A DNA stretch of 64,000 nucleotides from Paroceanicella profunda (GTDB lineage: Bacteria > Pseudomonadota > Alphaproteobacteria > Rhodobacterales > Rhodobacteraceae). The notes beneath the pieces were generated by a model. The model was given only the letters and a program-made list of their open reading frames with translations. It did not search any database and was not told the origin of the DNA. Below, piece by piece: positions 5,182 through 50,492 of the stretch; within the stretch, counting starts at the first letter, position 1; every line of letters starts with the position of its first letter. The translations under genes and the position numbers were made by a program. The DNA lies in the NCBI RefSeq assembly GCF_005887635.2, contig NZ_CP040818.1, forward strand, positions 1,238,001-1,302,000, read 5' to 3'.

Positions 5182-6008
5182 CTGGGCACCCTGCTCCTGC
5201 GCAGCAGCACGCGCACGGCGGCCGCGGTTTCCTCGATGGATCGCCGGGTGACATCGATCATCGGGATTCCGTGTTTCTCGAAAAACAGACGCGCATCGGT
5301 CACCTCGTCACGAATGTGATGGATGTCTGCATAGGCGTTTTCCCCGCTGATCTCCATATTGGAGAGACGGTGCCGGCGGATCTGCGCCAGGCGTTGCGGC
5401 GAGGCGGTGAGCCCGATCACCGGAAGCCCGGCACGCTGCGCCTCGAACAGCCCCTCCGGCGGGGCCTCTCCGGAAACCAGCGGCACGTTCGCCGCGCGGA
5501 TGCCCTGGTACGCGAGATAGATGCATGTGGGGGTTTTCGAGGTCCGACTCACCCCGACGAGAATCACGTCCGCCTGCAGCAGGTAATCCGGGCCCAGCCC
5601 GTCATCGTGGCTGATCGCGTAGTCCAGCGCCGCCACCCGCTCCAGATATTCCGCATCCACCCGGTACTGGCTTCCCGGCCGCTCGATGCGCCGCTCGCCG
5701 CCGAACCGGCTGAGCGCCTCGACCACCGGGGCCATCACGTCCACCACCTCGAGTTGCAGCCGCGCAGCCCTCTCGAACAGCTCCGAACTCACCGACGTGT
5801 CGGCAATGGAACAAAACACCGGCCCGGGCTGCGCCTCCAGCGCGGCCATCACCTCGTCCAGCGCCACGCGGGTGCGCACGAAGGGATGGACATGCGTCAC
5901 CGGCTCGAGAACCGGAAACATGCTCGAGGCCGCTTCCAGAACCGCCGAGACCGTCTCTCCGGTGGAATCCGAGACGAGGTGGATGTGAAGCGGGATCGGC
6001 TCTTCCAT
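5178..6008 (-). CDS. ppsR: Pyruvate, water dikinase / PPDK regulatory protein (kinase/pyrophosphorylase, DUF299)
   Basis: The protein has 276 residues. This family both phosphorylates (ADP-dependent) and dephosphorylates (phosphate-dependent) a threonine of pyruvate phosphate dikinase or PEP synthase, switching gluconeogenic flux. The N-terminal HLVSDSTGETV and the P-loop-like GVSRTSKT (residues 152-159) are diagnostic. The start at MEEPIPLHIH is chosen for an AGGAAG 6 nt upstream; earlier in-frame ATGs at 6023 and 6050 are possible. It is the first gene of the minus-strand operon and reads away from the candidate origin at 6051-6436. Whether the target is PPDK or PpsA cannot be decided here. 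Confidence 0.93.
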   Translation of the reverse strand: MEEPIPLHIHLVSDSTGETVSAVLEAASSMFPVLEPVTHVHPFVRTRVALDEVMAALEAQPGPVFCSIADTSVSSELFERAARLQLEVVDVMAPVVEALSRFGGERRIERPGSQYRVDAEYLERVAALDYAISHDDGLGPDYLLQADVILVGVSRTSKTPTCIYLAYQGIRAANVPLVSGEAPPEGLFEAQRAGLPVIGLTASPQRLAQIRRHRLSNMEISGENAYADIHHIRDEVTDARLFFEKHGIPMIDVTRRSIEETAAAVRVLLRRSRVPS

Positions 6009-6310
6009 CGGATCTTCCTGCATGCTGCCAGCATAGTGCACGTGCGGCACGGTGGAGAAAGGGGTGGGTAACCCTGTGCATGAATTCGGGACGAATGTGT
6101 GTGATTTTTGCGGAGGCAGGTTTGCCGGTGGAAAGCGGGGGAGTCTTCAAGATGTTAATGATCAAAATCGCCCCATGTTGAAAGTTATCTCGGGCCGCCA
6201 CCGCCACGGCGGACTCTCCCCACCCCCCGAATCGCATTTTCACCTATTTTTGCAAACAGTTAAGCCCCGCACGCCAGCGTCCGAAACGCCGCGAAAATGC
6301 CTGTGAATGG

Positions 6311-6319
6311 TGTGGATAA
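6311..6319 (-). promoter_or_regulatory. DnaA box (perfect TTATCCACA on the minus strand)
   Basis: The plus strand reads TGTGGATAA, the exact complement of the consensus high-affinity DnaA box. A CCATTCACA (two mismatches) lies directly beside it at 6302-6310, and a one-mismatch box is at 6075-6083. Such boxes bind the initiator DnaA. Confidence 0.7.
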
Positions 6320-36512: not shown

Positions 36513-36587
36513 GGGCGGGTAGCTCAGCGGTAGAGCAGGTGACTCTTAATCACTTGGCCGAGGGTTCGATCCCCTCCTCGCCCACCA
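36513..36587 (+). tRNA. tRNA-Lys (anticodon CTT)
   Basis: A full cloverleaf is drawn from the sequence: acceptor GGGCGGG with CTCGCCC, D-arm GCTC/GAGC, anticodon stem GGTGA/TCACT with loop CTCTTAA (anticodon CTT at 36545-36547), variable TGGCC, T-arm GAGGG/CCCTC with loop TTCGATC. The discriminator A and the CCA end (36585-36587) are encoded. The anticodon reads the AAG codon, which is the preferred Lys codon in GC-rich genomes. Confidence 0.96.
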
Positions 36588-36989: not shown

Positions 36990-37532
36990 ATGGCAGCGGG
37001 TGAAGACGACCGGACAGTGCTCAGCCGTGCCGCCCTGGGTGACAAGGCGGCCATGCGGGTGCTCTACGAGCGCCACCACGACCCGCTCCACGCCTTCCTG
37101 CGCGCCCGCTGCCGGGACGAGGCGCTCGCCAGCGACGTGGTGCACGACGCCATGCTGGAGGTCTGGCGCAGCGCCGGGCGCTTCAGCGGGAAATCCTCCG
37201 TACGCACCTGGATCTTCGCCATCGCCCGCAACAAGCTGGTGGACAGGCTGCGGCGGGGCGGGGCGCTGTCCTTCGTGGAGGAGGTGCCGGACCTGCCGGA
37301 CGAGGCGCCGGACGCCGAGGCCGTGCTCGACGCCGCGCAGAACGCCGCCCGGGTGCGGGCCTGCCTCGACCGGCTCAAGGCGATGCATCTCGCGGTGATT
37401 CGCCTCGCCTTCTACGAGGGCCTGCCCTACGACGAGATTTCCCGGGTGGAGGGCATCCCGGTGGGCACGGTGAAGACCAGGATCTTCCACGCCAAGCAGG
37501 CGCTTCTGCACTGCCTCGGGCGGCGCCGCTAG
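36990..37532 (+). CDS. ECF-type RNA polymerase sigma factor
   Basis: The protein has 180 residues. Region 2 is LYERHHDPLHAFLRARCRDEALASDVVHDAMLEVWRSAGRFSGKSSVRTWIFAIARNKLVDRLRR, including the -10-binding VHDAMLEVW and the RTWIF strand. Region 4 (LDRLKAMHLAVIRLAFYEGLPYDEISRVEGIPVGTVKTRIFHAKQAL) is an HTH for the -35 element. No region 1 or 3, so ECF-type. The start MAAGEDDRTVL is chosen by alignment; the upstream open frame is judged non-coding. The next genes on the map, an anti-sigma-like membrane protein and a subtilase, suggest the regulatory partners. Confidence 0.88.
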   Translation: MAAGEDDRTVLSRAALGDKAAMRVLYERHHDPLHAFLRARCRDEALASDVVHDAMLEVWRSAGRFSGKSSVRTWIFAIARNKLVDRLRRGGALSFVEEVPDLPDEAPDAEAVLDAAQNAARVRACLDRLKAMHLAVIRLAFYEGLPYDEISRVEGIPVGTVKTRIFHAKQALLHCLGRRR

Positions 37533-37690
37533 CCCGGGGGCCGGCCAGCGCCGCACGGGCAGGGCGGCGTGTGCGACCGCCCTGTCCGTTGCGGGCACGA
37601 CGGCTCAGGCAACCCGGTGCGATCCGTCGGGTGAATTCGGACCTGTGCATTCCGGCCGTCGCGACCGGGCAGGGCGCGCGCCCTCCGGGT

Positions 37691-38266
37691 TCAGGGCCGC
37701 GCCACGGCGGTCACCAGTTCCGGCCGGGCGCGCAGCGCGGCTTCGCCGGCGTCCCGCGCGGCATCATCGGCGAAGGTGAGGGTGAAGAGGCCGAGGGCGC
37801 CGGGCCCGTCGGTGACCGTTGCGCCGAGCGCGACCAGAAGGGCGGTCACCTGCGCCAGCGGCGCGTCATCGGCGAAAGCCACCTGCAGCGCGGGGCCGGT
37901 GAGTGTATCGCTCACCGGCCGGTAGCCCGCCGGCCCCCGCCCGGGCAGGTAGGGCACCGCCGCGAGCTGCCAGACGAGCACCGCCGCCGCCGCGATGCCT
38001 GCCACCTGCAGCGGCGAGAACCGCCGGGTGGCGTTCGCCGGCACGCCGGTGCGCTCCGCCTCGATGCTGCGGGAGAGCCGGTCCCAGCCGGCCGCGCGCG
38101 CGGCCGCCGGCGGGGCCTCGGCGCCCAGGGCCGCGGCGGCGGCGCGCAGCGCGGCCAGTTCGGCGCGCAGGGCGGGGCTTTCCGCCAGCTCGGCCTCGAA
38201 GCCGGCCGCCGCATCGGGGTCCAGGCGGCCCTGCATGTAGGCCAGAAGGTGATCGTCGGAATCCAT
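37691..38266 (-). CDS. Membrane anti-sigma-like protein with a subtilisin-propeptide-like periplasmic domain
   Basis: The protein has 191 residues. Residues 1-75 form a cytoplasmic part, DDHLLAYMQGRLDPDAAAGFEAELAESPALRAEL, typical of zinc-free anti-sigma N-termini. A single membrane helix lies at about 85-106. The periplasmic tail (about 125-191) reads like a beta-alpha-beta domain: ALQVAFADDAPLAQVTALLVALGATV, LFTLTFADDAARDAGEAALRARPELVTAVA, resembling the inhibitor-I9 propeptides of subtilisins, which end in a similar LRA-P-x-V pattern. The gene is convergent with the sigma gene and divergent from the subtilase gene. The anti-sigma role and the I9 resemblance are inference. A TTG at 38278 is an alternative start. 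Confidence 0.72.
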   Translation of the reverse strand: MDSDDHLLAYMQGRLDPDAAAGFEAELAESPALRAELAALRAAAAALGAEAPPAAARAAGWDRLSRSIEAERTGVPANATRRFSPLQVAGIAAAAVLVWQLAAVPYLPGRGPAGYRPVSDTLTGPALQVAFADDAPLAQVTALLVALGATVTDGPGALGLFTLTFADDAARDAGEAALRARPELVTAVARP

Positions 38267-38445
38267 GTCATGCCCCAAGTCCGGTTCCTGCGCAGTCTCC
38301 GCGAGTTTCGCGCCAAACGGAAGGTGCCGCGCGGAAGGAGGGGGCAGGGCGGCGGCCGCGCTGCGCCCCGCGTGCCGCCGTGTTCGGGAGTTGGTCGCGC
38401 GGGGGCGGGGCAGGGTTCAAAGATTTTCCGTCCCTGCGGCTGACT

Positions 38446-38469
38446 GGAACGCCAGACTGTGAGACGGTT
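38446..38469 (+). promoter_or_regulatory. Candidate ECF-type promoter (GGAAC-N16-GTT) for the subtilase
   Basis: GGAAC at 38446-38450 is followed after 16 nt by GTT at 38467-38469, about 37 nt before the subtilase start. GGAAC-N16/17-GTT is the usual pattern for several ECF factors, including EcfG-type general stress sigmas. The gap between the divergent anti-sigma and subtilase genes is 239 nt. Whether the nearby sigma factor uses it is untested. Confidence 0.45.
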
Positions 38470-38505
38470 CACAGACCGACCGGGAGTTCACACCGAAAAG
38501 GGCCC

Positions 38506-39714
38506 ATGACCAGAGACCATGCCCCCCGCTGCCAGATCACGGCCCCGCTTCTGGGCATCGCCCTTGCGCTCGCGGGGTGCTCCCCCTCCTACACGCTCAA
38601 TCCGCCGCCGCCGGAGCAGATCCGCGCCGATGCCGGGATGGTGTTCGACGCCCAGGAGATCCTGGCGCTGACCTCGACGCCGCAGGCCGCCGAGGCCCTG
38701 CGCGCCGGGGCCGGGGCCGAGGGGTTCGTGTTCCGGGAGCAGCGCGCGCTGCCGGCGCTGGAGCTGTGGATGCTGCGGTTCGAGTTCCCCCTGCCGCTGG
38801 ACGGGCCCGGCGCCATCGCGGCGCTCGAGCGCATCGAGACCAGCGCCACCGCCGGGGTGAACCACGCCTACAGCCTCGCGGCCGGGCCGGTCGGCAGCCG
38901 CTTCGCCTATGCCGACGCGCTGGTGGGCTGGCCCGGCGGAGGCTGCGTCTCGCAGGGGCCGATCGGCATGCTGGACACCGGGGTGGACGTGACGGCGCCC
39001 GGCGTCGCCGGCGCCCGGGTGGTTTCGGAGAGCTTCGCGCGCGGTGCGCCGGCGCCGGAGGGCCACGGCACCGATGTGGCCAGCCTGCTGGTCGATCCGG
39101 TCCGGCTCGGGGGGGTGACGCTCTACAGCGCCGGAGTGGTGGGCCAGTCCGCCAGCGGCGCGCGGGTGGCGAGCGTCGACAGCATCCTCGAAGGGCTGGA
39201 CTGGCTGGGCAGCCAGGGGGTGCGCCTAGTGAACGTGAGCCTTGCCGGCCCCTACAACAAGCTGCTCGATCGGGCGGTGGACCGGGCGAACGCGCATGGC
39301 ATGACCATCGTCGCCGCCGTGGGGAATGACGGCGCCGAGGGCGCGCCGCGCTACCCCGCCGCTCTGCACAACGTGCTGGCGGTGACGGCGGTGGACGCCC
39401 GGCGCGCCATCTACCGCAACGCCGTGCAGGGGGATTTCGTGGATGTCGCGGCCCCGGGGGTGAACGTGCTCCTGCCCGGCGGCGACACCCGCTTCGCGAG
39501 CGGCACTTCCATCGCCGTGCCCTTCGTCACCGCCTGGCTGGCCTCGGACCCGGAGCTCTATTCCGCGGATGTCGCCACGATCCGCGCAGCGCTGGCGGAC
39601 AGCACGATGGACCTCGGTGCGCCGGGGCCCGACCCGGTGTTCGGGGCAGGGCTTCTGCAGGCCGGCTCCGGCTGCGGCGCGGACACGCGGATGGCCGGGG
39701 CGCCGGCGCACTGA
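38506..39714 (+). CDS. S8 family (subtilisin-like) serine peptidase lipoprotein
   Basis: The protein has 402 residues. A signal peptide with lipobox LAGC (C25) predicts a lipoprotein in the cell envelope. Residues about 45-125 form a prodomain-like part ending in GAIAALERIETSATAGVNHAYSL. The peptidase domain has the full triad: D157 in GMLDTGVD, H187 in GHGTDVASL, S335 in GTSIAVPF, and the oxyanion Asn N274 in AVGNDG. It is encoded divergently from the anti-sigma-like gene, with a possible ECF promoter upstream. Substrate is unknown; cleavage or binding of the neighbouring anti-sigma protein is a testable inference. Confidence 0.87.
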   Translation: MTRDHAPRCQITAPLLGIALALAGCSPSYTLNPPPPEQIRADAGMVFDAQEILALTSTPQAAEALRAGAGAEGFVFREQRALPALELWMLRFEFPLPLDGPGAIAALERIETSATAGVNHAYSLAAGPVGSRFAYADALVGWPGGGCVSQGPIGMLDTGVDVTAPGVAGARVVSESFARGAPAPEGHGTDVASLLVDPVRLGGVTLYSAGVVGQSASGARVASVDSILEGLDWLGSQGVRLVNVSLAGPYNKLLDRAVDRANAHGMTIVAAVGNDGAEGAPRYPAALHNVLAVTAVDARRAIYRNAVQGDFVDVAAPGVNVLLPGGDTRFASGTSIAVPFVTAWLASDPELYSADVATIRAALADSTMDLGAPGPDPVFGAGLLQAGSGCGADTRMAGAPAH

Positions 39715-49493: not shown

Positions 49494-50492
49494 TCAGCCC
49501 GGCCGGGCTGCGGGCAGGCGCATGAGGCAGGCGGCGCGACTGCCGTGGCCCGTGTCGGCCAGAACCGGGCGCAGGGTGGCGCAGTCCGGGCCGCGCTCCG
49601 GGCAGCGGGTCACGAAGGGGCAGCCCTGCGGCGGGAGCGCCGGGCTCGGCAGGTCCCCCTCCAGCGCGAAGGGGGGCTTGGCGCGCTGCGCCGCCGGGTC
49701 CGGCAGGGGGATCGCGGCCAGCAGCGCCTCGGTATAGGGGTGCGTGGGATGGTCGAAGAGCGCGTCCGTCGGCCCCTCCTCGGCCACGGTGCCCAGATAC
49801 ATCACCACCACCCGGTCCGAGATGTGGCGCACCACCGAGAGGTCATGCGCGATGAACAGGTAGGACAGGCCCAGCTCCGCCTGCAGGCTCATCAGCAGGT
49901 TCACGATCTGGCTGCGGATGGAGACATCGAGCGCCGAGACCGGTTCGTCGCAGATGATCAGCTTCGGGTTCAGCGCCAGCGCCCGGGCGATGACCACGCG
50001 CTGGCGCTGGCCGCCGGAAAGCTCGTTGGGGTAGCGCTGTGCGTGGCCGGGCAGCAGGCCGACGAGGCCGAGCAGTTCCGCCACCCGGGCCGCGCGCTCC
50101 GCCTTCGGCCAGCCGGCGATCGCCAGCGGCTCGGCGATGCACCGGCCCACGGTGAGCTTGGGGTTCAGCGCCGAGACCGGGTCCTGGAAGATCACCTGCA
50201 TGTCGCGGCGCAGGGCGCGCTGGCGCGGGGCGTTCTGGGCCAGGATGTCCTCGCCCTCGAACAGGATGCGCCCGCCGGTGGCGCGCACCAGCCCGAGGAT
50301 GGCGTTGCCGGCGGTGGATTTTCCGCAGCCGCTCTCGCCCACCAGCGCCACCGTCTCGCCCGGGCCGATCTCCAGGCTCACGCCGTCCACCGCCTTCACC
50401 GCGCCGGTGCGCCGCCCGGTGAACCCGCCGGTGAGCGGGAAGTGCACGCGCAGGTTCTCCACGCGCAGCAGGGGGGCGGGCGCTCCGGTCAT
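49494..50492 (-). CDS. ABC transporter ATP-binding protein, OppF/DppF type
   Basis: The protein has 332 residues. Walker A is GESGCGKST, signature LSGGQRQRVVIA, Walker B LIICDEPVSALD; the C-terminal oligopeptide extension (HPYTEALLAAIPLPDP, then CPFVTRCPERGPDC) includes cysteines of the FeS-type motif seen in OppF/DppF proteins. It is the last gene of the ten-gene minus-strand operon. Its start overlaps the OppD stop by 4 nt. Confidence 0.94.
   Translation of the reverse strand: MTGAPAPLLRVENLRVHFPLTGGFTGRRTGAVKAVDGVSLEIGPGETVALVGESGCGKSTAGNAILGLVRATGGRILFEGEDILAQNAPRQRALRRDMQVIFQDPVSALNPKLTVGRCIAEPLAIAGWPKAERAARVAELLGLVGLLPGHAQRYPNELSGGQRQRVVIARALALNPKLIICDEPVSALDVSIRSQIVNLLMSLQAELGLSYLFIAHDLSVVRHISDRVVVMYLGTVAEEGPTDALFDHPTHPYTEALLAAIPLPDPAAQRAKPPFALEGDLPSPALPPQGCPFVTRCPERGPDCATLRPVLADTGHGSRAACLMRLPAARPG

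Follow-up and report, generated by a model that had tools for sequence, protein, structure and literature searches.

In a window of 64,000 nucleotides of Paroceanicella profunda (NCBI RefSeq assembly GCF_005887635.2, contig NZ_CP040818.1, positions 1,238,001 to 1,302,000 of the forward strand), three adjoining genes encode an extracytoplasmic function (ECF) sigma factor, an anti-sigma factor with a single membrane helix and a subtilase lipoprotein. That this module is real and conserved is close to certain, since the trio recurs in many genera, far beyond what chance would produce. The periplasmic end of the anti-sigma factor carries a sensor domain which, with good confidence, shares its fold, and probably its origin, with the prodomains of subtilases. 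We tentatively propose that a maturation domain devoid of its tail acts here as a receptor, that the subtilase would represent a new class of site-1 protease, and that the module is old and widespread in Pseudomonadota.

The module and its conservation

The genes for the sigma factor P0002 (180 amino acids; positions 36990..37532, ATG at 36990, stop at 37532) and the subtilase P0003 (402 amino acids; 38506..39714, ATG at 38506, stop at 39714) both lie on the + strand. The gene of the anti-sigma factor P0001 (191 amino acids; 37691..38266, ATG at 38266, stop at 37691) stands between them on the − strand, pointing the other way, convergent with the sigma factor gene and divergent from the subtilase gene. 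Open reading frames (ORFs) and domain matches confirmed the trio, which an initial annotation of this DNA had proposed.

We surveyed relatives of the anti-sigma factor, a locus being taken as domain-positive when the sensor-domain profile matched at E <1e-3. In the family set, sigma factor, anti-sigma factor and subtilase occurred together in 24 of 24 domain-positive loci, window included, and a subtilase stood beside the domain-bearing anti-sigma factor in 15/16 loci of the class set and 22/23 of the phylum set. In total, the subtilase was found alongside 61 of 63 anti-sigma factors with the sensor vs 2 of 21 without it, so that the linkage expected in the initial annotation holds; the two sensor-less cases with a subtilase (L117 and L120) are of the Sinorhizobium meliloti type discussed below. 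The domain profile was built from family rows, and among the 39 remaining rows, which are independent of profile building, 37 had the subtilase. Fisher values for the linkage were 2e-11 (class and phylum sets) and 1e-14 (all), but they overstate independence because two families (f174 and f171) supply many of the phylum rows and the profile that retrieved the distant rows was itself derived from loci bearing the trio; likewise, the count measures consistency and not independent events, since the rows share ancestry.

Larger regions were taken for 26 family places and for Oceanicella sp. SM1341 (L031), and the class-list survey covered, at a larger flank, the window plus the 36 places following it. 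For the family, class and domain-negative rows, the stretches read were mostly 8-12 kb long, with a few of 4-8 kb where a contig ended; the window row measured 3.6 kb and the phylum rows 2.6-3.6 kb, 13 of the latter being re-read at 5-11 kb with unchanged outcome. Weak family rows (L024, L026-L030) were excluded before counting; two of them, read at larger size as L057 and L058, held none of the trio. Two borderline loci with a subtilase (L143, E 2e-3; L153, E 3e-3) were kept out of the domain-positive count, and L032 and L054, which had no anti-sigma match at E <1e-4 and did not show a subtilase, out of the domain-negative count. In genome G530, no nearby sigma factor was found for L107, nor for L099, where a subtilase is present.

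Within the genome of the window, the anti-sigma query matched this locus alone, and the subtilase profile matched the window gene and, weakly, two others. Across the family, the anti-sigma sequence was matched in 31 of 198 genomes, the weaker rows being chance or distant matches. Among the 61 loci with sensor and subtilase, 50 have the subtilase downstream on the strand of the anti-sigma gene (in 33 of them within 100 bp between profile matches), nine are arranged as in the window, with the anti-sigma gene on the opposite strand between the sigma factor and subtilase genes (L001, L031, L033-L036, L040, L092 and L129), and two have the subtilase upstream. One genome (G035) holds both a divergent and an operon-type locus (L036 and L037).

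A prodomain-like sensor on the anti-sigma factor

An AlphaFold2 model of the anti-sigma factor, built from 23 sequences, divides the protein into an N-terminal helical anti-sigma domain (residues ~1-73), a helix (85-106) covering the hydrophobic stretch, a flexible linker (106-117) with a predicted local distance difference test score (pLDDT) <50, and the sensor (126-189). The latter is predicted as beta-alpha-beta-beta-alpha-beta, with pLDDT block means of 88-98 over residues 121-190. Model and alignments together place the prodomain-like periplasmic domain at residues 125-191 (37694..37894, − strand), which include a conserved GPxALGL-type motif.

For the N-terminal part, the anti-sigma family profile matched the anti-sigma domain of ChrR (2q1z_B, E 0.0022), and the profile of 40 relatives matched the anti-sigma factor RsiW (5wuq_C, E 0.00093). 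Matches to NF052375/PRK13920 stayed under their cut-off, and the NCBIfam anti-sigma score of the window protein (52.4 bits) was under the cut-off of 100. A ChrR/RsiW-related helical domain followed by a predicted membrane helix marks the protein as a class I anti-sigma factor. In these sequence profile searches of solved structures, anti-sigma domains were matched and prodomains were not.

Pfam families, tail length and profile alignment were analyzed in a set of 63 members (23 + 15 + 25), which differs from the linkage set (24 + 16 + 23) in lacking L050 and L107 and in including the borderline L143 and L153. The anti-sigma gene of L050 (~5675-6313) appears split between frames, through a sequence error or as a decayed gene, and was left out of alignment A1. 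Fervidolysin_NPro-like (PF22148) matched at E up to 1 in 16/63 relatives (8/23 and 8/40), being the commonest Pfam match after the anti-sigma zinc-finger-type families (the next, TetR_C_31, was found in 4/40), and one relative, L213, passed its curated score (24.7 bits vs 21). Inhibitor_I9 was not among the Pfam families listed for the 63 relatives (25 of 29 families being listed for the 40-member set). The initial annotation had read the end of the protein as an I9-like propeptide: the predicted fold is indeed that of a subtilisin prodomain, but the nearest Pfam family in relatives is PF22148 and not Inhibitor_I9.

In a profile comparison with hhalign, which gave a clear result only with the deeper set of sequences, the sensor family aligned end to end with the prodomain of the adjacent protease itself, in line with the prodomain-like fold that the initial annotation had expected. 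Fold matches of the sensor included, by entry title, the inhibitor POIA1 (1v5i_B and 1itp), and those of the anti-sigma model the Aeromonas sobria chaperone ORF2 (3wqb_B); RRM and ACT domains were interleaved among these prodomain-type matches, and at E <0.001 a Foldseek search with the anti-sigma model returned nothing. When the model was compared with the prosegment of subtilisin BPN' (1spb_P), prosegment residues 7-71 of 77 aligned to model residues 124-191. The anti-sigma factor of the window thus ends at prosegment residue 71, leaving the last six prosegment residues without a counterpart, and in 47 of the 63 relatives the C-terminus extends only 0-3 residues past that of the window protein.

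The adjoining subtilase

The window subtilase matched Peptidase_S8 with 72.8 bits (cut-off 21.8). It consists of a signal sequence followed by the lipobox LAGC with Cys25, a prodomain of its own (~49-124), modelled in the canonical pose, and a catalytic domain (~131-392). The triad predicted by the initial annotation (D157, H187 and S335) was found in place, along with N274, and its Asp, His and Ser were invariant in an alignment of 24 subtilases; domain and triad identify the protein as an S8 subtilase. Two narrower identities were discarded, mycosin (TIGR03921; 77 bits vs 278.75 required) and QhpE (NF049966; 63.6 bits vs 165 required). In relatives, the column of the oxyanion-hole Asn is not Asn in L055, L213 and L218-L221, which keep Asp, His and Ser, and misalignment is possible there.

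A simple lipobox pattern matched the subtilases of 9/11 loci in the group of the window in the sigma tree (see below), vs 8/51 of the others. Window-type subtilases do not form one group in a quick subtilase tree, because three changes are needed. The operon-type subtilases of L037, L045, L050 and L051 have an additional N-terminal stretch of ~100 residues that looks immunoglobulin-like (IPT/TIG-type) by eye.

The sigma factor and an ECF-type motif upstream of the anti-sigma gene

The 180-residue sigma factor of the window matched Sigma70_r2 (PF04542; 65.1 bits, E 5e-18) and Sigma70_r4_2 (PF08281; 44.8 bits, E 1e-11), both over the cut-off, and possesses regions 2 and 4 only, as ECF sigma factors do. 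In the sigma tree, it fell inside a group of 53 rows with prodomain-type anti-sigma factors at the locus (support 91/44), separated from S. meliloti-type (RpoE6-like) sigma factors by a 100/100 branch. The window-like layouts lie within one group of 11 (94/97), two members of which (L038 and L039) are operons.

An ECF-type motif, TGAACC-N16-CGAC, is located at 38394..38419 (− strand), 128 bp upstream of the ATG of the anti-sigma gene and facing this gene; a second, weaker candidate (TGAACC-N14-CGTT) lies at 38446..38471 (− strand). All nine divergent loci, window included, have TGAACC-N16-CG[A/T]C upstream of the anti-sigma gene, always with a spacing of exactly N16, whereas shuffles, allowing spacings of 13-18, gave a mean of 0.14 and a maximum of 2 (0/200 as high). 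The motif was chosen after looking at an enumeration, in which GAACC-N16-CGAC occurred in 8/38 sigma upstream regions vs a maximum of 6 in 20 shuffles; the nine divergent anti-sigma regions were outside that enumeration. Depending on the pattern, the motif was also present upstream of the sigma factor gene in 16 to 21 of the 61 loci, many from the same genera, and upstream of the subtilase gene in 3/9 divergent loci. For the 17 operon-type loci of the family of the window, it was not listed upstream of the sigma factor gene, where no other shared motif was found either. Four promoter patterns of GGAA/GAAC..CGT type were not enriched.

Genome-wide, the motif had 66 matches vs 6 for a control pattern, many of them coding-like by eye, and therefore it defines no regulon. 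A further match in the window, at 49947-49972, is likely due to chance given these numbers. Lying before the anti-sigma gene, the motif makes this gene look like an ECF sigma target. We suggest that it is read by the sigma factor of the module itself, so that the anti-sigma gene would probably be a target of the partner sigma factor and subject to negative feedback.

As far as the flanks were inspected, the module is the isolated island that the initial annotation had described, with a tRNA gene (36513-36584; Rfam tRNA, 70.4 bits) directly to its left and, to its right, an ORF resembling an alpha/beta-hydrolase as judged by eye.

A putative prodomain-mimic mechanism and its alternatives

The observations above could be explained by the following mechanism, which we hold as a tentative whole. 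The anti-sigma factor would retain the sigma factor at the inner membrane and display a look-alike of the subtilase prodomain in the periplasm. The mature subtilase, freed from its own prodomain, which in the clade of the window carries the lipid anchor, would dock on the look-alike through the same face. In prodomains, the last six C-terminal residues sit in the active site of the protease, and the first and last strands of the fold adjoin, which brings both termini to the same edge. The look-alike ends where that tail would enter the active site; with the tail missing and the termini at one edge, the cleft of a docked protease would remain open beside the juxtamembrane linker (106-122), a geometry that would favour cutting over plugging. 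The subtilase would then cut the linker (site 1) and a generic site-2 protease would complete the cleavage; the released sigma factor would transcribe the anti-sigma and protease genes, and newly made anti-sigma factor would reset the switch. It seems probable that the sensor binds its cognate subtilase; that binding leads to cleavage and release of the sigma factor, i.e., to activation, is a more speculative step, which we consider possible.

Several results weigh against this mechanism. The anti-sigma factor of the window itself had no Pfam match, PF22148 included, at E up to 1. The hhalign probability of the sensor-prodomain match was only 24%; with the first, smaller alignments (23 and 24 sequences) it was 0.4% (E 0.15), and a catalytic-domain control was also above shuffles (13.0). 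In the fold comparison of the sensor model, RRM, ACT and Mesd-type domains scored similar Z values and Boca/Mesd ranked first; this fold is common and also occurs in unrelated families. The missing tail is not universal, since 16/63 relatives extend 5-13 residues past the end of the window protein, and two sensor-bearing anti-sigma factors, L107 (G530) and L142/L217 (G796), had no subtilase in the stretch read. The motif was not found upstream of the subtilase gene in the window. Moreover, in a distance-matrix co-evolution test over the 61 loci, which compared how closely the sensor and the anti-sigma domain each follow the subtilase, the sensor did no better: given the sigma factor, the partial rank correlation of the sensor with the catalytic domain was 0.13 vs 0.21 for the anti-sigma domain, and the correlations with the subtilase prodomain were 0.04 and 0.05, respectively. 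The sigma factor was followed by the sensor (0.33) no less closely than by the anti-sigma domain (0.24). Direct partnership of sensor and subtilase thus has no support from co-evolution, and it is mainly this negative test and the common fold that call for caution. In addition, the site-1 proteases given as identified in the consulted part of a 2020 review are DegS, DegP, SipS/SipT and Prc, with no subtilase among them (PMC7593790).

Three other explanations were weighed. The anti-sigma factor might capture the mature subtilase as a holder or inhibitor, the complex protecting the anti-sigma factor. If the subtilase were lacking, had been exported or were busy with substrate, the naked domain would be cut by another site-1 protease, and the sigma factor would restore both protease and anti-sigma factor; the loop would then measure protease supply. 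Prodomain-type domains do act as stand-alone inhibitors or chaperones, as the fold matches POIA1 (1v5i_B, 1itp) and A. sobria ORF2 (3wqb_B) illustrate, and the ECF-type motif at the anti-sigma gene in 9/9 divergent layouts would suit such a loop. It would also fit that a sigma factor controls the protease of S. meliloti (PMC6180224), and that TonB-dependent transducers shield an anti-sigma factor from proteolysis, as a title has it (PMC11637429). We regard this explanation as somewhat less likely than the first. Against it, 47/63 domains stop about where the active-site tail would start, which should weaken inhibition, and the trio contains no gene for another site-1 protease. The S. meliloti finding applies equally to an explanation that is in our view still less likely, namely that the subtilase is only an output of the sigma regulon, while the sensor, of a generic ferredoxin-like fold, recognizes a different ligand and resembles prodomains by convergence. 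The RRM and ACT matches at similar Z, the negative co-evolution test and the occurrence of the same protease family beside anti-sigma factors with an unrelated periplasmic domain all agree with mere output. Yet, it leaves out of account that the protease adjoins when the sensor is present (61/63) and is absent when the sensor is absent (19/21), that PF22148 is the commonest Pfam match outside the anti-sigma zinc-finger-type families, and that the sensor profile aligns over its full length with the prodomain of the neighbour.

Prodomains are folding chaperones of subtilases, and the prodomain-like domain of the anti-sigma factor might in the same way fold the subtilase in trans, so that its folding status would be signalled. 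The A. sobria chaperone ORF2 among the fold matches is in line with this; the subtilase, however, retains its own prodomain, in canonical pose in the model, so that a second chaperone is not needed, and we consider this explanation highly improbable.

Relation to known systems

The module is a variant of a known arrangement of sigma factor and serine protease, with a different sigma clade and a different sensor domain. In S. meliloti, the ECF26 factor RpoE6 is encoded divergently from the serine protease gene SMa0142, an arrangement called widely conserved in ECF26, and RpoE6 overexpression raises SMa0142 (log FC, i.e., fold change, of 4.7) and ecfR6 (3.6) (PMC6180224). The annotated plasmid region L227 shows the RpoE6-type gene order and a protease matching the same subtilase profile; from gene order, this protease would be SMa0142. 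As in the window, RpoE6-EcfR6/SMa0142 brings together an ECF sigma factor, a one-helix anti-sigma factor and a subtilase, which is of the same family in both. In contrast, RpoE6 lies across the 100/100 branch and is not grouped with the window sigma factor; S. meliloti-type anti-sigma factors differ in their periplasmic domain, in which two Cys are invariant (17 aligned) and PF22148 had no match; and there the sigma factor gene is divergent from the protease gene, whereas in the window it is the anti-sigma gene that is divergent from the subtilase gene. Both types coexist in genomes G234, G345, G361 and G535. Among 27 further subtilases of the same family (L183-L209), a sigma factor was nearby in 17 and not in 10. 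On plasmids, two modules of S. meliloti type (L225, Aminobacter pAM01; L226, Nitratireductor pOM-1) have DUF4956 and polyphosphate polymerase genes in their vicinity.

With RseA/DegS/RseP, the module shares a one-helix anti-sigma factor whose periplasmic part may be cut by a site-1 serine protease dedicated to it, and a site-2 protease is encoded in the genome of the window. It differs in encoding its own subtilase and a prodomain-like sensor, cleavage being putative here. POIA1 and A. sobria ORF2, both soluble proteins, resemble the sensor in fold class and in being prodomain-like partners separate from the protease chain; the domain of the window is instead joined to an anti-sigma domain by way of a membrane helix and, in its relatives, mostly lacks the active-site tail. 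A further parallel is RsiV, an anti-sigma factor reported to serve as a receptor for lysozyme (PMC4183432, PMC5014341): in both cases an extracytoplasmic domain of the anti-sigma factor binds, or would bind, an enzyme as signal, which is lysozyme for RsiV and would be the cell's own, neighbour-encoded protease for the module of the window. Among the papers listed by our literature search, none was seen to describe a prodomain-like sensor on an anti-sigma factor, and an earlier mention is possible.

Many ECF systems still lack an assigned site-1 protease and an assigned signal, and the trio names candidates for the two at once. If the proposed mechanism is true, a receptor would have arisen by moving the maturation domain of a protease onto a membrane switch, and subtilases would join the short list of site-1 proteases of anti-sigma factors. 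Through its prodomain-like sensor, the cell may directly sense a protease encoded by the neighbouring gene.

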